Positions 210 to 31,835 of a DNA stretch of 64,000 bases are shown piece after piece. Source of the DNA: a virus; the IMG/VR virus record IMGVR_UViG_3300031552_000001, positions 62,001-126,000 of that record. One strand, 5' to 3'. The position numbers and the translations under genes are program-made. Each line of letters opens with the position of its first letter. Positions within the stretch are counted from its first letter, which is position 1. The notes under the pieces were generated by a model. That model was not told the origin of the DNA and did not search any database. It was given only the letters and a program-made list of their open reading frames with translations.

Positions 210-479
210 TTACACGAGCGGCGGCGGCGTCGACTTTACAGCACCACCGATGCCGGTAGCCGCCATTGGCGCGTTTGAGTGAACCATGGTGTAGTTTGTT
301 GGCTGAGCTGGCTTAGGTTTCGGCAAAGAGTTCCCTTTACCGATACCAGAAGAGGGAAGTGGCTTGCCTATAACATTTCCGCCCATACCGCCTACTGCGG
401 GTTTAGTGAATTTCATCACATTGCCCTCGGCGATTTTTTGAAGCTCATCTGTAAAGGAAGCCAACATTCTCTCGTACAT
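210..479 (-). CDS. Small virion-associated protein with N-terminal FxDELxKIA tag
   Basis: An 89-residue protein starting MYERMLASFTDELQKIAEGN. An ATG at 515 would give a longer product, but that would overlap the upstream gene by 35 bases; the ATG at 479 begins one base after the upstream stop at 481. The rest is rich in Gly, Pro and Lys (for example GMGGNVIGKPLPSSGIGKGN) and looks unstructured. The N-terminal F-T-D-E-L-Q-K-I-A segment is a variant of a short motif found at the termini of four other proteins in this window. Function is unknown; a packaged or capsid-associated role is a guess from that tag and from the operon. Confidence 0.65.
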   Translation of the reverse strand: MYERMLASFTDELQKIAEGNVMKFTKPAVGGMGGNVIGKPLPSSGIGKGNSLPKPKPAQPTNYTMVHSNAPMAATGIGGAVKSTPPPLV

Positions 480-480
480 T

Positions 481-1194
481 TTAGCCCGCTCTCTTTGCCT
501 CCACTGCGGCCACATCTATGCCAGCGTTAGCCAACATCTCAGCGGCTCTTTGGTTCACGGCCGCTGCCAGCTTCTCTTCATCCGAAGAGCGCAGCAACCC
601 GTGCGCTTCGGCCCACGCCGCCGCACGTTTCTCGGCAAGAATGTCTATTGCGCTCTTCTTTCCTGGCGTGGAAGCGGCCTCCTTAACAACAGGGCTAGGC
701 CCGCCCTCACCGCTCTTGGCAGAAGCCTGCTTCTCTATCTTGCACTTTTCGTTCCAGAAGGCGTGTGCCATTTGCCTGCCCAAGTAATCTGCTTGAGCAA
801 CTTTCTCTTCGAAAGACTCCTCGCCTGAATTAGCGGTATCCAAAGCCTTGAGTTCAGCCAAAGCAGCCTCCTTCAAAGCCTCTTCCTCACCCTTCTCAAG
901 CTCTTTCTCCTCTTCTTTCTTCTCTTTTGCAGCAGATTCAGATTTCTCGTCGGCAATTCCCTCAAAGTCAGGTGCTTCGCCTGCGGCCTCTTTTACCAGA
1001 GCGCTATCTTTTCCAAAGATCTCTGCTGCAACTTTTACCACAGTGCTTCCATCAAGCTTGTCGATGTCCACACCTTCTGCCCTCAAAGCCTCGTCCAAAA
1101 GCTGGATTTCAGCCAACTTCTCTACGTCCGAAGAGTCGCGAGGGGCACCAATCGACTCTCGTGTACCGTACATTTCTGCCAAAAAAGCGTTCAT
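481..1194 (-). CDS. Highly charged Glu/Lys/Ala-rich virion protein (scaffold-like)
   Basis: A 237-residue protein with a good Shine-Dalgarno (AAGGAG, nine bases before the ATG). The central part (about residues 75-125) is an almost uninterrupted Glu/Lys/Ala stretch predicted to be helical or coiled coil. The C-terminal third is again Ala/Glu/Lys helical. It carries one K-x-A-S motif (EKQAS). High charge and low complexity next to the prohead-protease-like gene would fit a scaffold or internal head protein, but no family is recognised. The 89-base gap upstream holds the SD and perhaps a promoter. Confidence 0.7.
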   Translation of the reverse strand: MNAFLAEMYGTRESIGAPRDSSDVEKLAEIQLLDEALRAEGVDIDKLDGSTVVKVAAEIFGKDSALVKEAAGEAPDFEGIADEKSESAAKEKKEEEKELEKGEEEALKEAALAELKALDTANSGEESFEEKVAQADYLGRQMAHAFWNEKCKIEKQASAKSGEGGPSPVVKEAASTPGKKSAIDILAEKRAAAWAEAHGLLRSSDEEKLAAAVNQRAAEMLANAGIDVAAVEAKRAG

Positions 1195-1283: not shown

Positions 1284-4200
1284 CTACACTCCTCGAGCAA
1301 CATACTGCCCTCCCCGCCACATTTTATCCCCGGCGTCCAACGCACGGTCTACTACACCACGAGTTTTAGGGTCTCTAAGCAAAGCCCCCAGCCCGCTCAC
1401 TGCTGCCATTGAAGTAAGCCAAGGATGCTCTGCTACCAGTGAACCTAATAAACCGACATCTTCCCCTCGCGCCATCGACCGACGCTTGTGAGCCGAATAC
1501 AGTAAAGCTAAGGGCACGGACCCTAACACCAACGTTAGAGTTCTTCTGTCTAACCCTAAAGGAGACGCAGTCTTGCTAAACATATCTTCAGTGCTTAAAC
1601 CTAGAGTTCTGGCATGAAGCTCCGGATGGCTTACTATTGCTTTTGGTAATTCGCTTGCCAATTTCATGATCTCTTTTCTGTACCAAGTGTATGCGGATGC
1701 AATCTTGGAGAGAAGAGGAGAATCTACTTCGGAGGACGAATGGTGAGAAGCGGGCTTTGATGTAATAATCTTCCCTATTCGACGCCGCACAACCGGCCCC
1801 GTATATGACTTGTCTTCCAAAAAGGGCAGAAGCCTCTCGAGCAGGGTCTCATCAAATTGGGAAGAATCTAAAGGAGCACAAGGAGCTTCACTGCTGTCAT
1901 TTTGCGCAGCTACTGCTCCAGCATTATCTAACTTGTCTGCAAGGTCGCCCTTTCCTATATGCACCAAAATGATGCGCTGAAACTCCTCGGGCTTTAAAGC
2001 CATGCCCATTAAAGCAGGAGTGGCGAGACTCTTCTCTAACTCCGGGCACTCTCCCATCTGATTCAGTACGTCCTTTGGAAGAGAGGGTTCTGTTTGAGAA
2101 AGTATAGGGGAAACCCTGCCCACTGCTTTACTAGGCCCTATCCTCTTTACAATCTCAGCCCATTTCAGGTGGGACATTTTCGTCTCGTTCGACACCTTCA
2201 ATAATTCTTCGGGGCTCCACCCGTGATGGATAACTCGAGCTACCTTCACCGCAGCAATGTCTACAGAAGCTGTCTTGGCTTTAACGAGATCTCCAGAGTT
2301 TGACCTAATAACGTTCAGCTCCTTGCCGCTAGAAGAGTCCCTCCATGTTTTTTCTCTTCGTCTAGCCGAGCCTGCGCCAGCAAATAGCTCATCTAAATTG
2401 GCAGAAGCGACTTTCATAGTTCCGCCTTCCTCCGAAGCTACACTGAACTCGTCCTCCAAAATCAAATCGGCTACTTTATCTGACCAGATAGATGCTAACT
2501 TTTCACCGTGCGCCTCTTTCCGGACAACCGCTTTTTTGAATAACGGGTAGGCCATAACGGTCAATGACCTAAAAAATTTCGGATTGTCGTAATGAGCTAA
2601 ATAAGCAGCCTTTGCTTGCTCCGGAGTTTGGAACCCTAGCATCACTTTATCTTCATCATACTTGCCGGCCTTTCGACCATTAATAAAATTCTGGTGTACG
2701 ATATAGACGTTCTCGGGGTCCCAAGGGCCTACGTAAACGTCTAGCTTGTCTCCGTCTACTCCTCGAGTTCCCAGAATCTCCCCGTATGGAAGCTTCATAT
2801 GAGTCTTCCAGCCCTTACCTTCTCGAATATCACCAGGCCGGTTCTCTACATGAATAGTCAAACCTTTAAGTTTTATGGTCCCTGTAAAGGGAAATTCTTT
2901 TCGATTAGGTTTTGGAGGAGGGCCAATCTTGATGTTCTTTGCGCGCTTAAACGTTTCCTCTAAATCAGCAGAAGAGGTTTTCATGCGATTTGGGTGAATC
3001 GTTTCGTGGTCTAGTTCCTTATCAAACTTTTCTTTATCTATTTCCTTCTTAGCGCCTTTCAGTGCGGTAAGGCCGTCTGGTCCGTCCCCGTCTACCCCAA
3101 ATTCTACAGTACGAGAGCTGCCGTAACTACCTAACCTCTTCGTAGCTAAAAGAACCCTGTCCAAACTAGCTAATAAGTCAGGGTTCCCCTCAATGTGATA
3201 ATCCCTACGGTCTACTTCATAAGACCCTCCTTTAACAAACGCGCTATCAGATAATTCTGCGCGGGGGTCCGTACCTCCTTGAGCTTTTCGTAAGTAGTAG
3301 TCTACGGTTTCTCTACGGCGGCATACACTACCCGGGGGCTTAGGATTCTCGCCCCTACCACGCCTCAGATAAAAGTCCATTATTTGGCTTCTTCTATCTC
3401 GTATCGGTTGTTCTCTCGATGAGTCAACTCCAGCGGACTCTTCTTCGTCTAAAGTTCCTGCATTTGTTCTAAGTACTCCGTCTTCTATTGCTGTAGGGCT
3501 TTCCTGATTATCTGTACGCCCCATGATAAGGCGAGTGTCTGCTTCATCCATAGGGTCGATAGAGGCTGTCTTTACTTGGATGCGGCACCCACTTACACAT
3601 TCTTTGCAAGTACCGACTCCACAAGCTGCTTTGATCAACCCGATTCTATCCTCTTGTAGGTTGTACACCGTTTCTGCGTCTATTACGGATTGAGGAACAT
3701 AAGAGCCAGACGCTAGCTTACACATCACCTTTGCTGTTTTATCTGCTCCAATAAATACAAAACTAATATCAAAGAACCTCGGATGAGGGTTAATGACGGA
3801 TATTCTTCTACCGTCGTCCAATATTTTACCTAAACCAATATTCTTTACGCAGCTACAGTAGTCTTCTCTAGTTTTAGACTTGTGCCCACAAATCGAACAA
3901 ACGTCGTACGGAATTCGCGTACCCATACTTACATCAGGAAACTCGCCAGCAAGGATCCTATCAACAACGTCTTGCGCACCATTCTGAAGAGCCAGCGCCT
4001 TATCGATTAGAACTACCAACTCCACCCTATGCATCTTAGCGTTCCAACAAGCCACTGCTACTGTGCCGAACGCTCGATTAGGATCTTTGTTTTGGTGATG
4101 CTTAAAAGGAAGCGCGTTAAGAAATGTCCAGTACCCGTATGGAGGTATAGGTTTACCTGTAAAATCGTCTATAGGATGAGACTGCCCGCTATGTAGTCTG

Positions 4201-4451
4201 CAATCATGAACAAGGGAGGCTTCCGGAAAGTCGTCCCCGTTCACATTAGCTCCATAATATTCAGACGCCCCTAACGCGTTTACCAAAACCGCTAGCTTAT
4301 TAGGGTCTTTTTGATAGCCGTTTAACCATTCCTGTACGGGGGGCATAAGATGCTTAGCCTCTTTAACCATAGTAATCTGTGGCTCAAAGAGGCAAACCAA
4401 AGGCTCCCCGTCAGGGGCAGTGCCTTTGAAAGTTGCTAGCTTAGTGATCAT
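1284..4451 (-). CDS. Prohead-protease-like domain fused to phage inorganic-pyrophosphatase-like domain
   Basis: A 1,055-residue multidomain virion protein. Residues about 1-250 resemble the phage head-maturation protease type: a N-x-N-G-D-D-F segment, KHHQNKDPNRAFGTV with a candidate catalytic His, then EFPDVSMGTRIPYDVCSICG, whose Ser in VSMG is the candidate nucleophile, followed by paired Cys (CSICG, YCSC) that could bind zinc. Residues about 490-650 match the pyrophosphatase-like domain seen in phage head polyproteins (GTRGVDGDKLDVYVGP). The C-terminus has hydrophobic segments. Eight K-x-A-S motifs are spread along the chain. The ATG overlaps the upstream stop by one base (TAATG). The assignment rests on motifs, so the protease call is moderate and the pyrophosphatase-like call stronger. 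Confidence 0.65.
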   Translation of the reverse strand: MITKLATFKGTAPDGEPLVCLFEPQITMVKEAKHLMPPVQEWLNGYQKDPNKLAVLVNALGASEYYGANVNGDDFPEASLVHDCRLHSGQSHPIDDFTGKPIPPYGYWTFLNALPFKHHQNKDPNRAFGTVAVACWNAKMHRVELVVLIDKALALQNGAQDVVDRILAGEFPDVSMGTRIPYDVCSICGHKSKTREDYCSCVKNIGLGKILDDGRRISVINPHPRFFDISFVFIGADKTAKVMCKLASGSYVPQSVIDAETVYNLQEDRIGLIKAACGVGTCKECVSGCRIQVKTASIDPMDEADTRLIMGRTDNQESPTAIEDGVLRTNAGTLDEEESAGVDSSREQPIRDRRSQIMDFYLRRGRGENPKPPGSVCRRRETVDYYLRKAQGGTDPRAELSDSAFVKGGSYEVDRRDYHIEGNPDLLASLDRVLLATKRLGSYGSSRTVEFGVDGDGPDGLTALKGAKKEIDKEKFDKELDHETIHPNRMKTSSADLEETFKRAKNIKIGPPPKPNRKEFPFTGTIKLKGLTIHVENRPGDIREGKGWKTHMKLPYGEILGTRGVDGDKLDVYVGPWDPENVYIVHQNFINGRKAGKYDEDKVMLGFQTPEQAKAAYLAHYDNPKFFRSLTVMAYPLFKKAVVRKEAHGEKLASIWSDKVADLILEDEFSVASEEGGTMKVASANLDELFAGAGSARRREKTWRDSSSGKELNVIRSNSGDLVKAKTASVDIAAVKVARVIHHGWSPEELLKVSNETKMSHLKWAEIVKRIGPSKAVGRVSPILSQTEPSLPKDVLNQMGECPELEKSLATPALMGMALKPEEFQRIILVHIGKGDLADKLDNAGAVAAQNDSSEAPCAPLDSSQFDETLLERLLPFLEDKSYTGPVVRRRIGKIITSKPASHHSSSEVDSPLLSKIASAYTWYRKEIMKLASELPKAIVSHPELHARTLGLSTEDMFSKTASPLGLDRRTLTLVLGSVPLALLYSAHKRRSMARGEDVGLLGSLVAEHPWLTSMAAVSGLGALLRDPKTRGVVDRALDAGDKMWRGGQYVARGV

Positions 4452-5226: not shown

Positions 5227-5484
5227 CTACTGAAATTTTGGGATTGAAGGCACTGCTCGAGCATTTGCTGCTTGGAGCCACGGTTGGGTAAGCCCGGCTT
5301 GCGAATTCCTAACCCCCTGAGATACTATCGGTGCCGCCGTAGCTGCTACCAACCCCGTACCGGCAAGCCCCTTCCAGTGTCTACCAGCAAATCCAAGCGT
5401 TTTTCTTCCAGCAAGCTGAAGAGCCTTACCTACAAACGCTTCCTTAGTAATCTTTTCCGCTACTCGGCTAGACCTAAGAAGCAT
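5227..5484 (-). CDS. Small basic hypothetical protein
   Basis: An 85-residue basic protein (MLLRSSRVAEKITKEAFVGK) with a central hydrophobic stretch (WKGLAGTGLVAATAAPIVSQ) long enough for one membrane segment. The ATG overlaps the end of the upstream 529-residue gene by 11 bases and has GAGGGG upstream. No family is recognised. It lies in a tightly coupled run of leftward virion genes. Its size and possible single transmembrane segment could fit a minor internal or injection protein, but nothing shows this. Confidence 0.6.
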   Translation of the reverse strand: MLLRSSRVAEKITKEAFVGKALQLAGRKTLGFAGRHWKGLAGTGLVAATAAPIVSQGVRNSQAGLTQPWLQAANARAVPSIPKFQ

Positions 5485-7063
5485 TGCGCAACCCCTCTTT
5501 TATTGCCTTATCCACCAAGTTGTATTGATTTTGGATGCGCCTATTTGTTTCAGAAAATACCGTATCGCCTTCCGCAAGTTTACACATCGAGGCATAGATC
5601 TTTGCTATAGGGTGATTCAAATTAGGCACTCGATAGCAGGCGGTTTTACAAATACCGTATTGAATAGAATCCGCCTCTGCCTTAATAAGATCCATCCCTT
5701 GCTTAGACAATTCACCGCAAAGTGAGGCAAAAGCCAATTTAACTTCCGATTCGTTTCCGTTCACTTCATGCATAAGATGAGCAACCTCGCCCAAATTGCC
5801 TCCATTCCACATATATTGGCTAACAGCCTTGTGAAGCTCTGCGGAAGCTTCCTTTTTCATCTCCTCATTCTTTGCAGAGGCGCTGAAGCACTCATCTAGC
5901 ATCTTAGCTAATTTCTGCCTGGTTCGAATAAGACTTCCATATGGATTAGCCCACGGATAATAGTCTCGCTTGGAAACTTCCTTCTTGATAGCTTCCAAGG
6001 AGTGAGCCTCCTGCGCAGCCTTTATAAGAAGTCCTGCATGAGGTCGGCGCGCCCTAATGTAGTCAAATGCCTGCTTCGTGAAAGAGCCCATTTTTATTCC
6101 TTCACCCCCTGGAGGGGCCGTTACAGCCCCCGCCGCGGGGGCAGGAATCTGTTCTTCGGGCATAGGAAGCTGCCCTGCCATGGCTTCTGGAGCAGCTTCC
6201 GCAGGAGCTCCCGCTACTCCAGCGTCAGGAGGAGGACCTTCTGGGGCAGGAGCAGGGACCGCCCCAGGTTGGCCTTGAGGATTCATTGCGTCTAGGGTTT
6301 GTTGCTGCACCTTCTGGAGTTCTTGTCTTTTTTTAGCGAGCTCTATTTCCCGTTGAATCTCTAACATCTGTTTATTGTAGCTGTCTCCGTCCTCGGCCGA
6401 CATAGGCTCTTCTTGAGGCATTGGCGCTGGTGCTTGGGGCATCATGCCCGGGGCTACATCAGCTTGTTTAGACTTTTCATCTCCCAAAACTCGGGAAAGA
6501 ACAGAAGAATAGTCATCCCCGTTAGCACTCGCGTGTTTTGAGGTAAGATCAAAAATACGGTCTAATACCAAGTCTCCACTTTCATTCTTAGAGCGCTGAG
6601 CACAAGCTACTTTCTCCAATCCAGGAGGCGCAAAATCAACGCCCAAAAATAGCTTAGATAGTGCAGCGTCGGCTTCCAAACCCGCCTGCCCTAACTTTAC
6701 AGAACCGCGGGCATAGTCGTCGGCCGCAGGACTCATAGTCTGGGGCCGAGCCCCGTTATTGATCTCCAATAAAATCTCACCCGGGTCCGCTACCGAAAAA
6801 TCAATATTCTTGTCTGAAGCATACTTCTCATTATCACTGAACAGTCTAGAAAACGTCTCTTGGTTCGCGAATTCGACAACTCTACGTACCTGATGGGTAG
6901 AAATACTGGGATGCTCCCTAGCAATTTTTACAATCGAGTCGTTTAGTGAGCTGCTCCCAGAGAGGTATTCCACCGCAGCCCGTCTTCCCAAGGACTGTAG
7001 GTCTGAAGGACTCAAAGCGGCGTAGGTACTTTTTGATTCTAGACCAAATGGAATGTCGCTCAT
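5474..7063 (-). CDS. Hypothetical virion protein with Pro/Ala/Gln-rich linker
   Basis: A 529-residue protein (MSDIPFGLESKSTYAALSPS) with GAGG six bases before the ATG. Residues about 1-200 are a helical region; about 205-320 form a Pro/Ala/Gln/Gly-rich linker, probably disordered; about 325-529 are helical again with several Cys. Three K-x-A-S motifs occur (EKYAS, SKHAS, KKEAS). It is just downstream of the terminase. The family is not recognised; a structural role is inferred from position, linker composition and the shared motif. Confidence 0.7.
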   Translation of the reverse strand: MSDIPFGLESKSTYAALSPSDLQSLGRRAAVEYLSGSSSLNDSIVKIAREHPSISTHQVRRVVEFANQETFSRLFSDNEKYASDKNIDFSVADPGEILLEINNGARPQTMSPAADDYARGSVKLGQAGLEADAALSKLFLGVDFAPPGLEKVACAQRSKNESGDLVLDRIFDLTSKHASANGDDYSSVLSRVLGDEKSKQADVAPGMMPQAPAPMPQEEPMSAEDGDSYNKQMLEIQREIELAKKRQELQKVQQQTLDAMNPQGQPGAVPAPAPEGPPPDAGVAGAPAEAAPEAMAGQLPMPEEQIPAPAAGAVTAPPGGEGIKMGSFTKQAFDYIRARRPHAGLLIKAAQEAHSLEAIKKEVSKRDYYPWANPYGSLIRTRQKLAKMLDECFSASAKNEEMKKEASAELHKAVSQYMWNGGNLGEVAHLMHEVNGNESEVKLAFASLCGELSKQGMDLIKAEADSIQYGICKTACYRVPNLNHPIAKIYASMCKLAEGDTVFSETNRRIQNQYNLVDKAIKEGLRNAS

Positions 7064-11527: not shown

Positions 11528-11893
11528 ATGACAACCTCCAAGAAACACCTAGCTAAAACCAGACTGCAATGGGTAGAGCATGCTCGACTAGGCATTCTCA
11601 GTGCTGTAGGGGAAGATGTCGTAAAACCCCAGTTTAGAGTATTCTCTACTGTAGATCCTCTTCGATTCATATTGAGCATTAACCTTACACTACCACTAGC
11701 AAAGAACACCAGGAAACCTCTGAGAGACTATATACGCGCATGGGCAGAAGAATTCGGCTGTGAAGTGCCTGTTATAGACATTCAAAACTCTAGAGTTCAA
11801 GCAGAGGTACTAACTAAAGAAAGAGTATGGAGTAGAGATGCAAAAGGTAAATTCACTAAGGGGGCAAGAAGGTTTGAACGCAGGCCTCGATGA
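11528..11893 (+). CDS. Small basic hypothetical protein
   Basis: A 121-residue protein rich in Arg and Lys (MTTSKKHLAKTRLQWVEHAR ... RRFERRPR). It is the first gene of a three-gene plus-strand island between two blocks of leftward genes. Its 3' end overlaps the RNase HII gene in another frame by 56 bases. The SD is weak (AGAGG very close to the ATG). I do not recognise a domain; the basic tail could bind nucleic acid. Confidence 0.6.
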   Translation: MTTSKKHLAKTRLQWVEHARLGILSAVGEDVVKPQFRVFSTVDPLRFILSINLTLPLAKNTRKPLRDYIRAWAEEFGCEVPVIDIQNSRVQAEVLTKERVWSRDAKGKFTKGARRFERRPR

Positions 11894-12491
11894 GTGCGGT
11901 ATGGGAGCCCTTTGCGGGCCCGTTACAGTTTGCGTTGCTGCCTTTCCGATAGGCCCATGCCCGGTAGAGGGCGTAGAAGACTCTAAGAAGCTGACATTCA
12001 AAAAGAGGATGGAGCTGGCGCCCGTTCTTATGAAGAAAGCGTCCTTCTTCAATATAGGATGGGCGCACCCCTCAGTAATAGATAAAGAGGGGCTGAGTGA
12101 GGCCTGGAGAAGAGCGAGTTTAGACGCCCTTGAGGGGCTCCCGAAAAACACCGACCTCCACATAGACGGGGTAAATACCATACAGGGGTATACGGGAGTG
12201 CAGACTGCGTACGTAGATGGAGACGACTTCATTTGGCAAATTTCCGCAGCCAGTGTGATAGCCAAAGCAGCTAGAGACTTAGAAATGATAGGAATGAGCC
12301 GATATTTTCCTCATTATAGATGGGAAAGAAACATGGGGTACGGCTCAGCAGCTCACATAGAGGCACTCATTAAGCTAGGCCCCAGCTTTTATCATCGAGG
12401 AAGGTACCTCGTCAAATTGTTTGAAAAGCATAAGGATAAAATAAACGTAGCTAAATGGGGTAAATGGATGGAATCCTGGATTCCGTACTGA
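11838..12491 (+). CDS. rnhB: Ribonuclease HII
   Basis: Cleaves RNA in RNA-DNA hybrids, including single embedded ribonucleotides and primers. Visible RNase HII motifs are GLDECGMGALCGPV (catalytic Asp-Glu), EDSKKL, HIDG, ISAASVIAKAARD (catalytic Asp), and NMGYGSAAHIEAL..GPSFYHR. The Gly-Arg/Lys-Gly of the first motif, which recognises the RNA-DNA junction, reads Gly-Met-Gly here. The length (217 residues) is normal. The start is the ATG at 11838 with GGAG five bases upstream; a TTG at 11874 would reduce overlap with the previous gene and begin closer to the conserved fold. A repair or primer-removal role alongside the phage PolA is inferred. Confidence 0.9.
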   Translation: MQKVNSLRGQEGLNAGLDECGMGALCGPVTVCVAAFPIGPCPVEGVEDSKKLTFKKRMELAPVLMKKASFFNIGWAHPSVIDKEGLSEAWRRASLDALEGLPKNTDLHIDGVNTIQGYTGVQTAYVDGDDFIWQISAASVIAKAARDLEMIGMSRYFPHYRWERNMGYGSAAHIEALIKLGPSFYHRGRYLVKLFEKHKDKINVAKWGKWMESWIPY

Positions 12492-12981: not shown

Positions 12982-13001
12982 AGGATCATCTCCTTGATCC
13001 T
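12982..13001. terminator. Possible bidirectional hairpin between convergent genes
   Basis: A seven-base perfect inverted repeat, AGGATCA (12982-12988) and TGATCCT (12995-13001), sits in the 25-base gap between the plus island and the minus gene ending at 13000. A second stem (TTACGC/GCGTAA, 12963-12979) overlaps the plus stop codon. There is no T-tract, so termination activity is uncertain. Confidence 0.35.
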
Positions 13002-13194
13002 AGTGAAGAGCGGCTATTTTACTGAGTTCGTCTAGAAAAGACGACAGTACACTAGCGCTCTTCTCTACCTTTTCGGGGAGCTTCAAGCCCGTACTAGCAT
13101 TGTCCCAGTGTACTACGTCAGCGGGAGTAATGCCTGCTTTTCGCGCTCCAGCAGAGTGGAAGAATCTTCTTTGACGCTCACTTTTGTACGGCAT
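13000..13194 (-). CDS. Small conserved phage protein with C-terminal SFLDELSKIA tag
   Basis: A 64-residue protein starting MPYKSERQRRFFHSAGARKA, a pattern I recognise from many small uncharacterised phage proteins (MPFKSxAQRRxF, then VxHWDxxT and LPExV). It ends SSFLDELSKIAALH, a C-terminal copy of the F-x-D-E-L motif found at the N-terminus of three other proteins here. It lies five bases downstream of the ligase gene. Function is unknown. Confidence 0.8.
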   Translation of the reverse strand: MPYKSERQRRFFHSAGARKAGITPADVVHWDNASTGLKLPEKVEKSASVLSSFLDELSKIAALH

Positions 13195-13199
13195 ATTTC

Positions 13200-14756
13200 T
13201 TAACTCGTAGACATTGCCATATAGCGCAACTCATCCAAAAATGAGCAAGCCAGTTTTTGAAAGTATAGAGGCCCACAAAAATTCTTCCAAGCTGTTTTCT
13301 CTATCTCACCTTTTTCAAGATGCCATCCACTAAATCTTGGTTGAAAAAGAGCACCCCTGTCCTCAGTTCCGAAACGCTTTGTCGCCCTCACTTTTGCTAC
13401 TCTCCCAATATATTTGTTCTGGTTTTTCAGCATATCCTTGCCCATAGCGTGAGGAAAGCCCCCTACTTGTCCTACAATAGGCCCGTCTTCTGTCCAAGAG
13501 TAGCTTACAGAGCCGGCTCTATCGTGAGGCTCTCCCGTTTTTCCACTTACGGCAGGGTGTATTTTCCTTACATAGACATCAAAATCCGGAATGATTTTTG
13601 CTTTTGTTGGGGCGCTAGAAGACTGCTGTTCCACAAGGACTACGCCCTCTCTTGTAAGGGGGTACTTGCCTGTTATTATGCTTTTAAGAAGGGAGGATTT
13701 ATCTTTGGGTGTTAATGCCATTTTCGGCATCCAAAGGTCTTTAATTTTTTCTTCTACCTCTTTAAGGATCTTTAACTTCTCCACAAAAGGTGCGTCCACT
13801 ACAGATTTACCCTTATGTCTTACAACGTCGAAAGGGAACGCATGTAAGGTCGCATCCAGCTCTTTTTGTTTATCTCTACTTTCCCATACCTTCGTATTGA
13901 GAAGGCCCCCTATCACCTCTGACGGCAATGCCTTCCCTTTAGAGTCTAACGCTATAGTTTCTCCTCGAAGTATAGTTTTATCCAATTCCTTAGGAACTTT
14001 GTCCTTCAGCAGCTCTGTCAGTTTATGCGTGTGTTCAATAAGGCCGGTCGGGGTCAGCTTTCCTACTCTATAGGAGAATACTCTTGGAGCGCGCCCGGCC
14101 TTCAAGTCTATTATAGAATGAGCCCCATCAAGCTTAGGCATCATAATCTGGTCAGTTCTATTTGGGTCTACTTTGTCAATGTCTACTTCTTTATAACTGG
14201 CCTTACCAGAAGGTATATCCGGCCTACGTTCTCTAGTAACTGTCTTGTTGTGTATGAACCACCTTCCAGCGTCATCTCTGCGGATAGAAAATTCTTCAGG
14301 GTGCCTTTTGTCGTATAGGTTAAATCTAAGCTTAGTTCCAGGTGAGTCATCAGGCGCCGCATGATAAACGTCGGCTTTTGTTCGCCGGCCTTTCTCTACG
14401 ACCCCCTTTCCGTATTCGGTAGATATACGACCCAAAAAATCCATATACGGAATAGTATGGTCGTAGGTGGGCACCAATAAAGAAGACTGGCCGGGCTTTG
14501 GGAGCTCTTTTCGTCTTGGTAATACAAAAGAGTGAGCAACGCCGGTCTCGGGGTTGCCTAAGCGTAAGTCTACATGCGGGCCGGCTCTTTCTGCTAAATG
14601 GGGGTGAGCGGACATCTCCCAAACTTCTGGTTTTACCACCTTAGGCAGAGCAGTCACCTTTCGTTTAGGCACTCCAGGACCTAAACCACCGTCTTGATAG
14701 TAACGACTTTCCCTTTTCGTAACCCTCGCTGCTATCTTCTCCAGACGGCTAAGCAT
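13200..14756 (-). CDS. LigD-like 3'-phosphoesterase fused to ATP-dependent DNA ligase
   Basis: A 518-residue enzyme predicted to clean 3' ends and seal DNA nicks. Residues about 50-190 match the LigD phosphoesterase module: PHVDLRL (His, Asp, Arg ligands), YDHTIPY (His and Tyr), and EYGKGVVEKG. Residues about 205-390 are a nucleotidyltransferase: KLDGAHS (motif I, adenylated Lys), ILRGETIALD (III), REGVVLVEQ (IV), and AKIIPDFDVYVRKI (V). An OB domain follows, with a motif VI-like GALFQPRFSGWHLEK. It ends CSFLDELRYMAMSTS, resembling the terminal tag of neighbouring virion proteins. Its position in a structural operon, not in the replication cluster, is odd and raises the possibility of packaging in the particle. 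Confidence 0.85.
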   Translation of the reverse strand: MLSRLEKIAARVTKRESRYYQDGGLGPGVPKRKVTALPKVVKPEVWEMSAHPHLAERAGPHVDLRLGNPETGVAHSFVLPRRKELPKPGQSSLLVPTYDHTIPYMDFLGRISTEYGKGVVEKGRRTKADVYHAAPDDSPGTKLRFNLYDKRHPEEFSIRRDDAGRWFIHNKTVTRERRPDIPSGKASYKEVDIDKVDPNRTDQIMMPKLDGAHSIIDLKAGRAPRVFSYRVGKLTPTGLIEHTHKLTELLKDKVPKELDKTILRGETIALDSKGKALPSEVIGGLLNTKVWESRDKQKELDATLHAFPFDVVRHKGKSVVDAPFVEKLKILKEVEEKIKDLWMPKMALTPKDKSSLLKSIITGKYPLTREGVVLVEQQSSSAPTKAKIIPDFDVYVRKIHPAVSGKTGEPHDRAGSVSYSWTEDGPIVGQVGGFPHAMGKDMLKNQNKYIGRVAKVRATKRFGTEDRGALFQPRFSGWHLEKGEIEKTAWKNFCGPLYFQKLACSFLDELRYMAMSTS

Positions 14757-14765
14757 ACAGACGCC

Positions 14766-15320
14766 TTACTCAGTTTCAGTAACCAAGAGATGATTAAGCG
14801 GTTCGCATGCTTTCCTAACGAACTTCTCTATGCCTACCAAAATAGCGGTATTTTTTGCCCTCTGGAACTGAACTACATAAGCCCCTAGTTCGGGCACTAG
14901 TTCTACAGCCGCGTCGCCGACCCACATGGCATCCACGGCATCTTTAATGAGTTGTTTTATATTTTCAGGAAAAGAAAGTGCAGAAGCTTCTTCAGATCTT
15001 CCAGGTGTGTAAACTAGCCCGGTGTGCCCACAATAGCCGCAGGCCTTTACCTCTCTGTTAGACACATCAACTACCGCTCCGCAATTTTTGCATTGAGGCT
15101 CATAGTGACCCTCTACCCACTTATCTTCTACGCCCGCCCTAGGAAACAAATGTAAAAGAACGTCATCTTCCTTAATCGTGTACTCAACAAAAAGCCGAGG
15201 TAGGTCAGTTATTTTTTCCAAAATTACGGGAGAGGCCGTCATAGGACGAGTACTCGCCGATACTTCAGATAAAGCATCCTTGGTATCGTAATACCACTCA
15301 GGCATCACCATTCCCGGCAT
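14766..15320 (-). CDS. Zinc-ribbon protein, probably virion-associated
   Basis: A 184-residue protein. I chose the ATG at 15320 because AGGAAGG precedes it; ATGs at 15311 and 15305 are alternatives, and one at 15365 would overlap the upstream gene by 68 bases. Residues about 75-105 contain CKNCGAVVDV and ACGYCGH, a four-Cys zinc ribbon. The remainder is mixed alpha/beta with no recognised domain. It overlaps the upstream gene's end, so the two are probably translationally coupled. Confidence 0.7.
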   Translation of the reverse strand: MPGMVMPEWYYDTKDALSEVSASTRPMTASPVILEKITDLPRLFVEYTIKEDDVLLHLFPRAGVEDKWVEGHYEPQCKNCGAVVDVSNREVKACGYCGHTGLVYTPGRSEEASALSFPENIKQLIKDAVDAMWVGDAAVELVPELGAYVVQFQRAKNTAILVGIEKFVRKACEPLNHLLVTETE

Positions 15321-16206
15321 CGCCTTCCTCACTTTCTTCGCGGAATTCACCTTCATCTGTTCCATCTCCGCTGTAAGAGCCAGAAGGCCCTACTAAATCG
15401 GAAATGGCAGGTATGGCTTCGTCTTTATGCGCCATTATCCAATGTCGCACTTCTTTGAGTTGCTCTTCATAGCCGCCACCCTCACCATAAAGAATATCGT
15501 ACAGAGATCGCAGCTCCCTACACAAAGCTGTGAGGGTTTTTACATTTCCATACCCATCAGCCTTGTACGCTAAGTGTTGTATTCTAAAAGAAATCTGTCG
15601 ATGGGAGTCTCTCAACGACTGTTTGTAATCATATTTTGGGTTCAAACCAGCTCTGAACAATGCTTGCTGCTCGCCACACAGCAACGGGGCCATGTAGTCG
15701 TCGTACGCCAAGTGATTACCAAGAAACAAATCCCACTCTACTCTAGTAAGGTTTCTCCTTCTCCAAAAATAGTGCTCGTAATAAATAATCATGCTCTCTG
15801 TAAGAGATTCAGATAGCCTATATTTCCTGCTCAACTTATCGGCGATTACGCTGTACGGAACATCCCCCATTAGAAGAATATGGAGGTCGTGCTGGTAGCT
15901 TTTATCCCCGTGCTCCCCGAATATATCAGTAAGCACTCTTTTCATCGGAGCGTCTGGGCGCCAAATAGTATATATACGCTCCTGCTTCATGAACTGAATT
16001 GTAGGAGCATGCCTTGCGTTATTAAAAAGGAAGTCAGGCGGAGCTTGAAAGGTTTCTAACAAGGTCTCCCAGCTTTCATCGCGAATGCTCATAAGCCCTA
16101 GATTGCGTAGAGTAGTGTTTATAGTGTCTAATGTAGGGGTTTTTTCTGGATCCCCCCAAGAAGACGCAAGAAGATACCGAATATAATACTCACTAGGGTG
16201 TCTCAA
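15298..16206 (-). CDS. Hypothetical structural-module protein
   Basis: A 302-residue, mainly helical protein rich in aromatic and charged residues, with a Gly/Glu/Asp-rich disordered tail (SGDGTDEGEFREESEEGDAG). The start is TTG at 16206 with GAGG six bases upstream; no better in-frame start is nearby. The family is not recognised. It is flanked by the 670-residue unknown protein and the zinc-ribbon protein in the same operon. Confidence 0.65.
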   Translation of the reverse strand: MRHPSEYYIRYLLASSWGDPEKTPTLDTINTTLRNLGLMSIRDESWETLLETFQAPPDFLFNNARHAPTIQFMKQERIYTIWRPDAPMKRVLTDIFGEHGDKSYQHDLHILLMGDVPYSVIADKLSRKYRLSESLTESMIIYYEHYFWRRRNLTRVEWDLFLGNHLAYDDYMAPLLCGEQQALFRAGLNPKYDYKQSLRDSHRQISFRIQHLAYKADGYGNVKTLTALCRELRSLYDILYGEGGGYEEQLKEVRHWIMAHKDEAIPAISDLVGPSGSYSGDGTDEGEFREESEEGDAGNGDA

Positions 16207-16231: not shown

Positions 16232-18244
16232 TTAATTAGAAAAACTCAGCTCTTTTTGCTGAAGAGACTGTAAACCTAAAATTACGTCTTCCAACGCCGC
16301 AAGCATTCGCTCTACGGCAACTTCTGGGACCTCTTTAAGGCCAATCCTAACCGCTAACAAAAGCTCGGCTAATTTAGACGACGCGGCTTGCAGCGCAGGC
16401 AATAGGTCAACGAAAGTAGAGACGTTTTCAGCGTTTAGAAACCCCAAACCCAAGATCTTGTCCGCTGTAAGCGCATCATCCAGTACAGTAGCTTCCTTAG
16501 CTAAAAAGTAATTGTAAATAGGGGGGTTTAGCTCCGACAGTTCCTTTTTTAGCTCTCCTCTGATGGAAGCTAGCTTCTCTCCTACAGAACCCAACACCTT
16601 GAGGCCCCCTACTGAAACTCTCTCCCCGCGTTGGGCTCTATCCAAAGCAGTTTTACAAAACGTCGGCTCCATGCCCAACGCTACCCCTAAGAACATCGCA
16701 TCTTTTCTGTTGACGAATTTGGTGTAGTCCGAGGCAACTTTAGCAATCGCGGGCCCTCTGAACGTAAATATGTCTGCGGTATCGCCTACTATATCCACCG
16801 TGCCAAGCTTGTTATCGAACGCGAGTTTCGAAAACATAGTAGGGTCAGAAACGAGCTCCGTTTTACCTCTCAGGGGCATCCAGTTTAAGAAATTGGGGAG
16901 CACCCACTCCGATTCCCCCATCTGTACTGGCTTGGCTAGTCCTTCTCCAAAAGAAAACGTTACTTGACCCCCTAGCTCTGTTTCCGCCAAGAAACGAACC
17001 CCTGTTGGGGACTGCATTGAGCTGATTACCGTCATCGGAACAAAAGCTTTTGCCGTACCGTGGTCTATGTAATAAAGAGTGCCGTACCCTTTTGGTATCC
17101 CTTTTGGTATATCAGTGGACTTACCGGCTACCTCACCCGCAATTGTTTCCTGAACAGCGTACTGGGACCCATTGGTGAATAGCGACAGAGGAAGTACCTG
17201 CAAATCCAATGTCATGATCTTTGGAAACACCCACCCTATAAGAGTGTTGCCGGTGCTATCTTGCACTTTCCAAATACCAAACGAATCGGCGGCCTTCACC
17301 TCTTCAGCTTCTAAGGTTTGCTTCACAGGAGCGTCAGGACTTACTGTAACAGAGCCGTCACTTTCCAGCCGTTCTTGCATGTCCTGATCACCCATCATGT
17401 CTTGGGCAACCGACATGGGCACCTCTTCCTGCTGAGGAGCAAACATGCCGTCCGTAGCCCACTTCACTAGCGCTCTGTTGGTTCCCAGCTTACTTAGCTG
17501 TACAACAGTAGGTTTAATATGATTGGCTACGAAAGAAGCTACTTTTTCTGGGTCTGAGGGCGATAGTCTAAGAGCAGAAGCAAACGCTGCCTTTACCCCT
17601 TCGTTTCCATTACGTACTGCCGCATTCATCGAAGGGTCTGATAATGCTTCTTTAAGTCTCGAAGCGTGACCTTCTTTAATACGCCCGTATAGCAACGGCA
17701 AAAGCGGAAGATTTTCAATTTCCTTTTGCGCACTTCCTACTTTCGCCCCTCCAGAACCAAAACCCCCAAACCCCGATCGAAGAGGGGGCTGCAAATCATT
17801 GACCAGAGAGGGGTCCATTGGTCGAAGCCTAGTAACGTCAAAAGCCTCTGGCCTCATAAGCATCTCTCGAAGTCGGCTCTCTGTTAGCCTGTAATACTTC
17901 TTACCACTAATAAAAATATCCAAAGGAGAGAGCATCTGCTCTTTTACGACAATAGGTATGTGCGCTTTGTCTAACCCGGACGTCTGCATTTCCTCTACAG
18001 TCATCGCCGTTTTAGGCCTAACCTCAATAGAGCCGAAAGCGTAGCCTCTCTCTTCATCTTGCTTGTCTATAAGTACATGTACTTCATACGTGCTCAGATA
18101 CGGAAGCTGCTTGTACGCCTCTTGAATAATCTCTTGGGGCCAGTTATCGACATTATCCCCTAATCTGGTAAGCATCCCAGCAAGCTTTTCAGTTCCCTCA
18201 AATTGGATAGGGGCGTCAAGGAACAGGGCTTCTTGTACAGACAT
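16232..18244 (-). CDS. Hypothetical large virion protein
   Basis: A 670-residue protein starting MSVQEALFLDAPIQFEGTEK. The ATG at 18244 has GAGGAG seven bases upstream and is preferred to the one at 18259, which overlaps the upstream gene. There is a Gly-rich hinge near residue 165 (GFGGFGSGGAK) and an acidic Met/Gln-rich linker near 285-305. Three K-x-A-S motifs (EKVAS, AKVAS, EKLAS) occur. The C-terminal 100 residues are strongly helical. No family is recognised. Its place next to the spike gene suggests a baseplate, tail or injected protein. Confidence 0.7.
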   Translation of the reverse strand: MSVQEALFLDAPIQFEGTEKLAGMLTRLGDNVDNWPQEIIQEAYKQLPYLSTYEVHVLIDKQDEERGYAFGSIEVRPKTAMTVEEMQTSGLDKAHIPIVVKEQMLSPLDIFISGKKYYRLTESRLREMLMRPEAFDVTRLRPMDPSLVNDLQPPLRSGFGGFGSGGAKVGSAQKEIENLPLLPLLYGRIKEGHASRLKEALSDPSMNAAVRNGNEGVKAAFASALRLSPSDPEKVASFVANHIKPTVVQLSKLGTNRALVKWATDGMFAPQQEEVPMSVAQDMMGDQDMQERLESDGSVTVSPDAPVKQTLEAEEVKAADSFGIWKVQDSTGNTLIGWVFPKIMTLDLQVLPLSLFTNGSQYAVQETIAGEVAGKSTDIPKGIPKGYGTLYYIDHGTAKAFVPMTVISSMQSPTGVRFLAETELGGQVTFSFGEGLAKPVQMGESEWVLPNFLNWMPLRGKTELVSDPTMFSKLAFDNKLGTVDIVGDTADIFTFRGPAIAKVASDYTKFVNRKDAMFLGVALGMEPTFCKTALDRAQRGERVSVGGLKVLGSVGEKLASIRGELKKELSELNPPIYNYFLAKEATVLDDALTADKILGLGFLNAENVSTFVDLLPALQAASSKLAELLLAVRIGLKEVPEVAVERMLAALEDVILGLQSLQQKELSFSN

Positions 18245-18255
18245 GGTATTTCTCC

Positions 18256-19431
18256 TCACTTCGAGAAAGTCGTAGTGGACAGCAGCTCAGCGAGCTGCCC
18301 GTTAAGAGACGCTAAAGCAGGCGCGGCTACAACAGGCGTTCCTGGAGCAGCGCAGGTAAAAGAGGATATTTGGGTTATCAAGCTGGTAAGAAAAGACACT
18401 AATTTATCCCCTTTGACGAAAGGAGACGTAGCTCCGTTACCGAGGTGTATTACTGGAGAGTCTAACTGAGCTTTAGTCGCACTTTTCAGAACGGCTTCCG
18501 TTTTTCCTTCTACTACTACCCGTGCGGACGTAGACCTTACAGCAGTCTCTTGCTGAGCTTCTGCCGTAAATGAGCTCCCTGCACTCAACTCTATAGAGCC
18601 GTCAGTGGCACCCATGACAATATCTCCCTCAGACACCGTCAGCCCCCAACTCTTTTTTACTTCCCATGCTATACTTCCTTCTTTGGAAATATCCATATGA
18701 GCTACTATAGCCGCGCCCTCTTCTCCAGACTCAAACACCTCCAACAGCAGTGTAGTAGCTTCGCTCTCCCCGTGGGAACCAATACTAAGCGTAGCAACAT
18801 GCCCTCGGTCGTTCCCTTTTTCCTTAACCTTCAAAGAAAATTTTGTTAAGGCCTCACCGTCCGTGGTCTGGTCATCTCTCTCTGTGCTCCACACGAGCTC
18901 TCCACCAAAGGTAAAAAGCTCATAGTTCTCACAAAAATCTCTAATGAAATTTCGAATAGGGACGTACATTCTTTGGGCTGTTGGAGTGGCCCCTATTTGT
19001 ACTACTCCCCCCCGTCTCAAAACTACAAAGTTCTCGTCTCTCGTTCGTAACATAATATCGCCGGGATTTAGGGTTTGTCTTCCTCCTCTAAAACCGTCAA
19101 AATCCATGTCATGAGCGGACTGAAAGCCTAAGACAAAAGGAGCAGCAAACCTGCCCCCGCTGGGGACACACACCCACACCATAGACCCTACTTCCGGTTG
19201 TGCGTAAACACCCTCTCCATTAGCGAAATGAAAATACGGGCTCATTACCTGTAAGTCAAAATACCTCTTATTTCCCAGTTCGCTAATGCAGTCTACACTC
19301 CAGCTCTCTATGTTAACGTTAATCACTCTACACGTTTCTATAGACGCTCCTCTCCATTCTGACTCTAATATGCTAACTGGTTGTGGAGGTCTGCCTGTAG
19401 GGCCTAAGTTATTTAAAGGGGTAGTTGGCAT
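18256..19431 (-). CDS. Baseplate/central spike protein (OB-fold plus beta-helix, gpV/gp5-like)
   Basis: A 391-residue protein. Residues about 45-105 form a gp5/gpV-type OB-fold (YFDLQVMSPYFHFANGEGVY, then PEVGSMVWVCVPSGGRFAAP). Residues about 115-330 are repetitive beta-strands typical of a trimeric beta-helix needle (MLRTRDENFVVLRRGGVVQI, SEGDIVMGATDGSIELSAGS). The C-terminus (HLGNGATSPFVKGDKLVSFL) resembles the end of such spike proteins. It would form the membrane-piercing tip of the tail tube, implying a contractile or comparable baseplate. It lies 19 bases downstream of the RNA polymerase gene. Confidence 0.75.
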   Translation of the reverse strand: MPTTPLNNLGPTGRPPQPVSILESEWRGASIETCRVINVNIESWSVDCISELGNKRYFDLQVMSPYFHFANGEGVYAQPEVGSMVWVCVPSGGRFAAPFVLGFQSAHDMDFDGFRGGRQTLNPGDIMLRTRDENFVVLRRGGVVQIGATPTAQRMYVPIRNFIRDFCENYELFTFGGELVWSTERDDQTTDGEALTKFSLKVKEKGNDRGHVATLSIGSHGESEATTLLLEVFESGEEGAAIVAHMDISKEGSIAWEVKKSWGLTVSEGDIVMGATDGSIELSAGSSFTAEAQQETAVRSTSARVVVEGKTEAVLKSATKAQLDSPVIHLGNGATSPFVKGDKLVSFLTSLITQISSFTCAAPGTPVVAAPALASLNGQLAELLSTTTFSK

Positions 19432-28962: not shown

Positions 28963-29826
28963 CTACAAGGAAACAGTGGGCGTAGGTTTAGGCCCTAATG
29001 GAGCTGTAGGGACTCCACCTTCAATCAGAGGCATTCTAACAGGAGCGGGTGCTGCTCTGCGGGGGAGAGTTAAAGGGGCCCTAGCGGGAGCGGATTTAAT
29101 CTGAGATAAGGCTCGGCCCTTAGAACCGCCTCCTATAAGCCGATAAAGCTGTTCCTTATTTAGCCCTTGTTCAGACCTTCCTATCGCTTTTTTCATATAG
29201 GGAGTAAATTTACGCAGTCCCGATTCGGTTAAGTTAAGTACGTTACCGGCCATACCCCCCATACCCTCAGCCTCCCCTTTATGCATAGGAAGAACATCAA
29301 TAGCTTTTTCGCCTCGGATATTGGCCTTCCTAATGTCCTCTAATTGATAGCCCTTCGAAGCTCCAGCTCTTTGGAGCTCTTCTTTGATTGTAGCTTCTGC
29401 TCTACGTCCAGGCTCTCCTCCCGGTACGTATTCATGAAAAGTAGCCCGACCGCCTCTGCCTGTTCTTGCGAAGCCGTAAGTCTTAGCCAGCCTCGGAGAA
29501 TCTACGACCTTAGACATTTGTAGCTTGCGCCCTACCATCATAGGAGAAGCTATAGCGGAAGTGGGGTCATAGAGCTTACGAACCGCTACCCCATGCTCCG
29601 GGTGAGCTACCAAATCGGCTATTCCTTCGCTACCGCCTCCGAGGTGCTTGATGTGAGACCCCATAGCTGAGGGTTTCAACACTCCAGGGGTCTTTGCTAG
29701 TCGGCTAGCCTGCTCAAGCGCCCCACTGGTTCCTTTAGAGAACAGGTTCTTAATAAGACGGAAACCGGCTCTGGCTGAGATCTTCTCAAGCTCGTCTTTA
29801 AAAGCAAGTAAAGAAGTAGAATTCAT
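28963..29826 (-). CDS. Tagged virion-type protein with weak protein-kinase-like features
   Basis: A 287-residue protein starting MNSTSLLAFKDELEKISARA, an N-terminal copy of the F-x-D-E-L-x-K motif. Residues about 60-190 show a kinase-like order: a Gly-rich loop (LGGGSEGIA), GVAVRKLYD (possible VAIK-type Lys), hinge-like FHEYVPG, LEDIRKANIRG and KAIDVLP in the places of the catalytic D..N and DFG. The match is weak and could be coincidental or a degenerate kinase. The C-terminus is Pro/Ala-rich. The ATG overlaps the portal stop (ATGA), so it is coupled to the portal gene. Confidence 0.6.
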   Translation of the reverse strand: MNSTSLLAFKDELEKISARAGFRLIKNLFSKGTSGALEQASRLAKTPGVLKPSAMGSHIKHLGGGSEGIADLVAHPEHGVAVRKLYDPTSAIASPMMVGRKLQMSKVVDSPRLAKTYGFARTGRGGRATFHEYVPGGEPGRRAEATIKEELQRAGASKGYQLEDIRKANIRGEKAIDVLPMHKGEAEGMGGMAGNVLNLTESGLRKFTPYMKKAIGRSEQGLNKEQLYRLIGGGSKGRALSQIKSAPARAPLTLPRRAAPAPVRMPLIEGGVPTAPLGPKPTPTVSL

Positions 29827-31835
29827 GCCGCTGCAGCCTCGGGCCCTCTCATGGGAGGTTTCTGCTCAGGCATAGGCTGAGCCGCAGAGTTCACATTAGC
29901 CCCTCTAGACTGCTGCATAAGCTGCAATATCAACGAATAGAGTTGAGGATTACTGCTTCTCATCTGCATAAGGTGCTGCTGCTTCTCCTGCTCGGGTAGC
30001 TGATTCAGCCAACTCACTACCTTATTCGCTATATCAAGAACCCCAAGTTGGGAAGGTTGATTAGACACCAATTGAGATTCACCAGAAGCAGTAGGGGATT
30101 CCTCCTGACTCATCTCCATAGGAGGCACCTGACCCGCTTGATTCATCATCCCGGTTTGAGCGTTTATGGCAGCACCTTGCGCTATAGGGCTAGACATGCC
30201 AGGCTGACCTGCGGCCGCCATACCCCCCTCTTGCATCGCTCTTTGGTCTTTTGGATCCATAGGGGCTACTTGTTGCTCCATCAAAATTTTCTGCGCTCTA
30301 GTTTGATACTTGATTTGAACCAGTTGGGCCTCACCTTGAATGCCTGCCTGAGCCAAAGCTTGAGACCTTTGATTTTCGAGCACTCTCTTTTGCTCTACGG
30401 ATATTAGCTCAGATTCTTTGACTGCATCCCAGTCCATGTCCTCAAGTAAAGACTTGTCAGACAACTTACCCGCTTGATTCATTTGCAAAAATAGGGCGCT
30501 ACGCTGCAAATCATCCGCCATTTTGAACCGTTTGTAATGTACAGGTACGGTCTCCCACCCCATATACGCGCCTATATTTGGCAGGATAAAATCAGTAACC
30601 AACTGTTTATGTTGTGTCCTTTGATCTAAAAAATGATTCTCCAAAATTCTCAGAGATACGTTTGAACCGCTATAGCTCATTCCACCGAAGACGAACTCTA
30701 TCGGGACTCCCATGCCTGCAATAATATGCTCTGCCCATACGCGATATTCTTGTGCCAACATTAAGGCTCTTCCATCGCCGCCTAAAGTCTGTTGGCCTAC
30801 TGGAATAGGAAGTAGTGGGATGTAGTTGTTATCTAACCTCCATCGAATAATCTCCTGCTCTATTTTGTCTCGCCATTGTGTAAGATTAACAGACGAATAT
30901 ACAGAAGCATCTGGAGAGGAGGTCTGTGGAAACAGCAAGCGTAATGGGACGATATGTTCTACTGCAATGGCTTCTTGGGCCTTACGCAATATTTGGAGGT
31001 AGAAAGCGTCTTTGAGAACAGGAAGAACCATGGGCATCCCCCACCCCTTGTCCTTTTGGGCAATGGTAGGGCGCTTCATGTGGTAAATGTTATCCCGACT
31101 AAACAATAACGCTTTATTCTGACGAAGGGCCTCAATAAACACTTGAGGAGTGCGCTCTATGATATGCCGCTTAGCCATTCGGACATCATTCGCAAGCATA
31201 GGAGGGATAACGTAGTAGTATCTGCTCTCTCCCGTAGCCTCATTGTGCTGAATTGTGACGTACTCCGGGTTCCACCTAATTAAATGAATATCCCTTACTG
31301 ATCGAACGTAATGATCTCTGACCTGAAACTCTTGGTGGTGGTCGCATCTTTGACAGTTACCTACAAACTTGTAATCTCTAAAAGTGTACTTCTGTTTTTC
31401 TACCCTAGACCGATGCCCGCAACTCTTGCAAATGAGAAGCTTATGGAAAGGGAATGAAATAGATATGAACGCGTTACCGTAAGCTTGATAGTCAAGCCCT
31501 GCTTCCACTTCAAACTTCTTGAAGTTTAAAACTGACCCAAAACAATACTCCCATTGCTTACGAAGCGGCTCGTTTTCTGTATCAAAGACTAAGTCAGTTA
31601 TGGGGTATTCTGCCATTTTAGAACAGACGGCGTTGATAAGCGGGTTAGTTAAAAAGTAATACCTGCACCAACGCAACATCGTTTTAAACGACGACGGCAA
31701 ATACGTATGAGCTATATCAAAAAAAGGAGAAGGGTATCTAATGGCCCCCAGGGCTTCACTAGTTAACGACCGTCCAGTATTCCTAGAGAATCGCATACCG
31801 CCAGAAGGACCGAATGTTAGAGCATCTATGCTCAT
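29823..31835 (-). CDS. Portal protein with inserted zinc ribbon
   Basis: A 670-residue protein that would form the dodecameric DNA channel at the head vertex. Portal-like features include FLTNPLINAVCSKMAEYPIT near the N-terminus, YQAYGNAFISISF, the DIHLIRWNPEYVTI strand, GWGMPMVLPVLKDAFYLQIL, and the long C-terminal helix region. Residues about 135-172 contain CKSCGHR and GNCQRCDHH, a four-Cys zinc ribbon inserted in the wing domain. The last 150 residues are Gln/Met/Pro-rich and probably disordered. AAGG precedes the ATG. Confidence 0.8.
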   Translation of the reverse strand: MSIDALTFGPSGGMRFSRNTGRSLTSEALGAIRYPSPFFDIAHTYLPSSFKTMLRWCRYYFLTNPLINAVCSKMAEYPITDLVFDTENEPLRKQWEYCFGSVLNFKKFEVEAGLDYQAYGNAFISISFPFHKLLICKSCGHRSRVEKQKYTFRDYKFVGNCQRCDHHQEFQVRDHYVRSVRDIHLIRWNPEYVTIQHNEATGESRYYYVIPPMLANDVRMAKRHIIERTPQVFIEALRQNKALLFSRDNIYHMKRPTIAQKDKGWGMPMVLPVLKDAFYLQILRKAQEAIAVEHIVPLRLLFPQTSSPDASVYSSVNLTQWRDKIEQEIIRWRLDNNYIPLLPIPVGQQTLGGDGRALMLAQEYRVWAEHIIAGMGVPIEFVFGGMSYSGSNVSLRILENHFLDQRTQHKQLVTDFILPNIGAYMGWETVPVHYKRFKMADDLQRSALFLQMNQAGKLSDKSLLEDMDWDAVKESELISVEQKRVLENQRSQALAQAGIQGEAQLVQIKYQTRAQKILMEQQVAPMDPKDQRAMQEGGMAAAGQPGMSSPIAQGAAINAQTGMMNQAGQVPPMEMSQEESPTASGESQLVSNQPSQLGVLDIANKVVSWLNQLPEQEKQQHLMQMRSSNPQLYSLILQLMQQSRGANVNSAAQPMPEQKPPMRGPEAAAA

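Follow-up and report, generated by a model that had tools for sequence, protein, structure and literature searches.

What would an enzyme built like the bacterial end-joining protein LigD be doing among the virion genes of a phage? The question is raised by a 518-residue protein encoded in a 64,000-nucleotide stretch of viral DNA (positions 62,001 to 126,000 of the 192-kb IMG/VR record IMGVR_UViG_3300031552_000001; hereafter the window), in which a 3′-phosphoesterase (PE) domain is followed by a DNA ligase (LIG) domain and a short C-terminal tag (Table 1). A preliminary description of the DNA had taken this protein, PE-LIG, for a packaged end-healing enzyme that repairs injected DNA. Our analysis suggests an enzyme carried in the virus particle to mend injected DNA: a PE-ligase without the LigD polymerase or Ku, a virion operon and a real, recurrent tag are all found, while packaging and activity are predictions. 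Judged by its sequence, it represents a novel form of the PE-LIG pair of LigD.

The domain make-up was examined by profile searches. The ligase is matched by Pfam DNA_ligase_A_M (PF01068) above the cut-off (E = 6.4e-10, residues 200-374), and the PE domain by LigD_N (PF13298; E = 8.7e-5, residues 51-157), for which the window copy stays below the cut-off with 23.1 bits against a gathering score of 31.1; six records of the same lineage exceed it. The profile search that the preliminary description had proposed as a check thus gave a match above the cut-off for the ATP-ligase family and, for the window copy, one below it for the phosphoesterase family. The NCBIfam model PRK09632 (LigD) is colinear with the protein across PE and ligase (residues 59-349). 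The description was also right that the polymerase (POL, an AEP primase/polymerase) of LigD is lacking and Ku is not seen: no Pfam match to POL was obtained in the chain, which PE, LIG and tag fill, and no match to Ku (PF02735) in the 192-kb record or in the records of six relatives, which may be fragments.

Catalytic residues were compared in an alignment of eight phage sequences and 42 bacterial PE-LIG stretches, the latter from 80 genome_contigs loci with a LigD pattern. In Pseudomonas aeruginosa LigD, manganese is held by His42, His48 and Asp50 and the phosphate by Arg52, His84 and Tyr88 (PMC8656161). These six residues correspond to H53, H61, D63, R65, H100 and Y104 of the window protein; they match in 42 of the 42 bacterial LigDs, and all eight phage members in the alignment have them unchanged, as do four distant members. 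In the P. aeruginosa enzyme Glu21, Glu82 and two N-terminal residues are required for 3′-phosphatase activity and not for ribonucleoside removal (PMC8656161). The columns of these glutamates hold L37 and Y98 in the window protein, which means that residues specific for the 3′-phosphatase are lost. Since they are missing while those for ribonucleoside removal are kept, removal of 3′-terminal ribonucleosides is the safer predicted activity and removal of 3′-phosphates the weaker prediction.

In the ligase, the same alignment has K208, D210, G211, E266, E370, K385 and K387 kept. The initial claim that all PE residues and the ligase motifs I to VI are visible in one chain thus stands for the PE core, including PHVDLRL and DHTIPY, and for motifs I, III, IIIa, IV and V; it does not stand for the accessory glutamates, for the Arg of KxDGxR, which is His, or for motif VI, which reads GWHLEK in place of the GLRxDK of LigD, with His in all aligned close members. 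An AlphaFold2 model from a 50-sequence alignment has a mean predicted local distance difference test score (pLDDT) of 87.3 and a predicted template modelling score of 0.78. Its PE part (residues 44-170) is beta-rich and mostly at a pLDDT of ~90; the fold-search list is filled by ligases. The best solved-structure matches are DNA ligases, the T4 ligase-DNA complex 6dt1 giving Z 17.6 and 3.7 Å over 273 residues, and by this model the window protein has the T4-ligase fold. The mycobacterial LigD ligase domain matches with Z 17.5 and a large root-mean-square deviation, presumably because the two ligase domains are differently placed.

The protein was compared with two groups of known enzymes. With bacterial LigD it shares the PE-then-LIG order, the six PE catalytic residues and the ligase core; it differs in lacking the polymerase domain and, within the record, Ku, in carrying a C-terminal tag, in the Arg-to-His replacements of motifs I and VI, in a two-residue insertion between the metal-binding histidines and in having no equivalents of Glu21 and Glu82, and its identity to the sampled bacterial LigDs is ~20%. 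With phage ATP-dependent ligases (T4 gp30, PHROG 114 and Gp177 of phage Arash) it has the ligase fold in common. Family search of IMG/VR gave eight relatives of 44-73% identity, one of them partial (L103); six are 59-73% identical (L002, L013, L014, L015, L101 and L102) and L104 is 44% identical. Four more distant PE carriers of the same lineage were found with PF13298, namely three PE-LIG proteins of 36-40% identity (G010, G016 and G018) and G023, where PE and ligase are on separate genes. PE-LIG was not seen in G006, whose contig stops within that gene neighbourhood. No near relative was found in bacterial genomes by scanning genome_contigs with the family alignment, and tblastn against a phage collection of 50,697 records, with the window protein and one bacterial PE-LIG as queries, gave matches to the ligase part only, a search that a distant PE could escape. 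A defence-gene library gave no match to PE-LIG. No paper on a phage LigD phosphoesterase was found in the literature, and phages are not mentioned in a LigD review (PMC8656161) or in a survey of non-homologous end joining (PMC7719229).

The gene had been described as sitting with virion genes, away from the replication cluster, and this is confirmed. In the direction of minus-strand transcription the order is portal, a tagged protein, fused RNA polymerase β/β′, baseplate-like protein, proteins of 675, 302 and 199 residues, PE-LIG and a 64-residue protein, while the replication cluster, read by eye from a gene list, occupies 35-54 kb of the plus strand. RNase HII and then the large terminase lie beyond the 64-residue gene, and the same gene order is found across the relatives. 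RNase HII is kept beside PE-LIG in eight other viruses and could, with the PE domain, make up a ribonucleotide-removal set.

The terminal tag is also real and spreads wider than the preliminary description had noted, although the copy in the window protein is degenerate. Its consensus is AFxDELxKIA (F-x-D-E-L-x-K-I-A with small variation), and six proteins of the window record carry it, against 0.065 expected from shuffled proteins. A scan of IMG/VR for tags placed a short distance behind an ATG-N start yielded 69 stretches; many of these are on contigs of 120-210 kb, and some have at least three tagged neighbours. An Arash-type portal was present in 21 of 25 selected tag-bearing records. The tag DNA pattern was found in 27 of 30 records and a reversed control pattern in none of them; as most of the 30 were picked by the tag, its presence is by selection, which does not apply to the strand and number of tags. 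On that score, 90 of 95 tags in 23 records are on the strand of the portal, which holds 47% of the genes in the window record. Altogether we collected 99 distinct proteins with the tag; they are mostly unrelated, form 48 similarity clusters and are nearly all encoded on the late strand. In 74 of them the tag is at the N-terminus, in four at the C-terminus and in 21 it is internal, some of the internal matches being probably due to chance. Each of the seven complete close PE-LIG homologues (window protein included) has exactly one tag, 6 to 574 residues past the ligase. Both halves are tagged in G023, where PE and ligase are separate genes: the PE protein has ALIDELEKIS and the ligase FVDELEKIA. 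As far as we searched, the tag is undescribed, and no paper with the string DELEKIA was found.

What follows the ligase varies in the manner of cargo. The additions behind it include an SNF2 helicase (L015), a DnaJ-like domain (L002) and other domains (L013, L014 and L102). In L014 (10631-11542) the extension past the tag resembles, by eye, a papain-like (NlpC/YiiX-type) peptidase, with no Pfam match. The gene after PE-LIG opens with an MPxKSE domain in the relatives as well; behind it comes a DnaJ-like domain in L013, an SNF2 helicase in L102 and nothing but the tag in the window.

Arash (PMC10585845) and Vibrio phage D69 are related to this phage in their portal, their multisubunit RNA polymerase and some head proteins, and Arash offers a published virion proteome. 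Detection in its virions is highest for the RNA polymerase β subunit, with Gp206 and Gp216 among the most detected proteins, and the virions contain polymerase, an SNF2-type helicase and, by two peptides, a DNA ligase (PMC10585845). Arash Gp217 shares 39% identity with a helicase of L075 that has an N-terminal tag; the homology starts right after the tag, which Gp217 lacks. Helicases of this kind are those that follow PE-LIG as the next gene in L102 and are joined to it in L015. A tagged 175-residue protein of L002 (7940-8467) matches Gp96. By eye, the latter protein resembles an ADP-ribosyltransferase (HGT motif), with no Pfam match. Mass spectrometry of Arash virions detected 38 unique peptides of Gp217 and 15 peptides of Gp96 (PMC10585845), and these two are the only Arash proteins matched by the tagged set. 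Packaging of PE-LIG in the particle is plausible because the tag recurs on late proteins, each half of the split enzyme is tagged and two tagged families have homologues detected in Arash virions.

Taken together, these results led us to the following account. An Arash-like phage would make a LigD-derived PE-ligase along with the products of its late (virion) genes, and the C-terminal tag of the enzyme would be a copy of an address label, common to the lineage, by which late proteins are brought into the particle during assembly. The enzyme would enter the cell alongside the genome and the RNA polymerase of the virion; the PE domain would trim blocked 3′ ends, most likely 3′-terminal ribonucleosides, and the ligase would close the cleaned nick in the injected DNA ahead of phage transcription and replication. 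We put this account at an even balance; timing, packaging, delivery, activity and substrate are what we infer. The nearest precedent for the label is the capsid targeting sequence of T4, ~10 N-terminal residues that load internal proteins and are removed after packaging (PMC7697877). Both are short, portable motifs on unrelated proteins and mostly N-terminal, and loading by the tag is proposed by this analogy; the tag differs in sequence and is also C-terminal or internal. That AFxDELxKIA, at either end of a protein or inside it, is a virion-loading label used throughout an uncultivated phage lineage for many unrelated enzymes, SNF2 helicase and DnaJ-like proteins among them, with PE-LIG as the repair cargo that heals the incoming genome, we propose tentatively and at slightly short of even confidence. 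If true, phage particles would carry an end-healing ligase of LigD type that could repair incoming DNA ahead of all phage gene expression, one could read the injected cargo of the lineage directly from sequence, and the tag would be a new packaging label besides that of T4.

Several observations weigh against this account. The tag of PE-LIG itself, FLDELRYMA, is a degenerate copy (Y for K and M for I). The Arg of KxDGxR and the Arg of RxDK are both His in the window protein, and two distant members with an intact PE core (G010 and G016; L233 4847-6277 and L234 3778-5217) have lost both the motif III Glu and the KxDG Gly. The PE core is thus better conserved than the ligase core, and from these replacements and the loss of the motif III Glu ligase activity is predicted with less than certainty. 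The Arash mass spectrometry list is broad, with 116 of 252 proteins including replication enzymes (PMC10585845), so that detection of two out of two homologues of tagged families is weak statistics and suggestive only. Neither the tag nor PE-LIG was found in Arash, no common N-terminal label was seen by eye in Arash virion proteins, and no virion proteome was found for any tagged phage. D69, like Arash, has no PE-LIG and no tag. Finally, as no second ligase was found in the record, PE-LIG may simply serve replication.

This last point leads to the strongest alternative, an ordinary intracellular ligase that seals nicks in replicating or pre-packaging DNA, the tag binding a replication, scaffold or packaging complex without entry into the particle. 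A plain role in repair or replication is possible because no other ATP ligase and no NAD ligase was found in the 192-kb record; the conserved neighbouring RNase HII gene and the plain ligase, in genomes with no PE domain match, in the replication clusters of Arash and D69 are consistent with it. Nevertheless, PE-LIG lies outside the replication cluster, in the late virion operon, here and in the relatives, and the same tag is on many unrelated late-strand proteins, some of them homologous to proteins detected in virions. We regard the intracellular role as a serious possibility, though one that falls short of probable.

It is unlikely that the tag region is mainly a signal for the prohead protease, with cleavage near LxKIA and processing of its carriers in the head. 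The window does have a head maturation protease match, and enrichment of the tripeptide K-x-A is confined to a few late proteins, where it is frequently part of [LIMF]xK[LTV]AS, which resembles the LxKIA end of the tag; these K-x-A sites could be maturation-protease sites. In the tag, however, the residue following KIA is variable, and cutting at internal tags would sever fusion proteins.

We consider it very improbable that, once inside the cell, the linear phage genome is circularised or rejoined by the enzyme in a Ku-free reaction akin to non-homologous end joining: PE and LIG are indeed LigD modules, but POL, which mediates the Ku-LigD interaction (PMC7719229), is missing along with Ku. 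Ku-dependent end joining was rejected on the same grounds, with no Ku in the record and no POL in the protein. Least credible is a catalytically decayed protein whose old fold is reused as a virion part, as might be read from the His replacements in motifs I and VI and the two distant members without motif III Glu and KxDG Gly, since the PE core is invariant in all members and the ligase set of Lys, Asp, Glu and Lys is whole in the window protein.

Table 1. Features of PE-LIG and of its surroundings, in window positions unless stated otherwise
Feature	Position	Strand	Remarks
PE-ligase gene, 518 aa	13200..14756	minus	open reading frame check, profile matches, AlphaFold2 model
PE domain, residues ~44-170	14247..14627	minus	catalytic core H53 H61 D63 R65 H100 Y104
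S76 in PE domain	within 14247..14627	minus	structural residue
Ligase nucleotidyltransferase domain, residues ~189-387	13596..14192	minus	K208-L-D210-G, E266, E370, K385, K387
Ligase OB-fold part, residues ~391-483	13308..13586	minus	diverged motif VI FSGWHLEK
C-terminal tag, residues 506-514	13215..13241	minus	FLDELRYMA
101-aa protein	210..515	minus	N-terminal tag FTDELQKIA
Head maturation protease match	1284-4451	minus	
Large terminase reading frame, 1474 aa	7124-11548	minus	
RNase HII gene	11838..12491	plus	convergent with ligase operon; kept in seven relatives that have the ligase
64-aa gene directly downstream of PE-LIG	13000..13194	minus	MPYKSE domain, canonical C-terminal tag FLDELSKIA
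199-aa gene upstream	14766..15365	minus	syntenic in relatives
302-aa gene	15298..16206	minus	syntenic in relatives
675-aa late-strand protein	16232..18259	minus	syntenic in relatives
Baseplate/spike-like protein	18256..19431	minus	Phage_base_V, weak
Fused RNA polymerase β/β′, 2656 aa	19451..27421	minus	homologue of Arash Gp206/Gp216
287-aa protein	28963..29826	minus	N-terminal tag FKDELEKIS; adjoins portal
Portal	29823..31835	minus	~31-33% identical to Arash / Vibrio phage D69 portal
K-x-A-enriched late proteins	1284-4451, 5474-7063, 16232-18259, 33520-34659; also record 52-62 kb	minus (window positions)	

Some minor observations concern the neighbouring genes. PE-LIG adjoins a sigma-factor-like gene in three viruses, recognized by Pfam in L104 and by eye in L231 and L232, and Arash virions hold a sigma factor. 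The large terminase frame appears to be broken by intein-like stretches, several relatives having terminases of ~600 residues. The RNA polymerase frame has intein and LAGLIDADG signals; shorter fused frames are found in the relatives, and two genes in Arash and D69.
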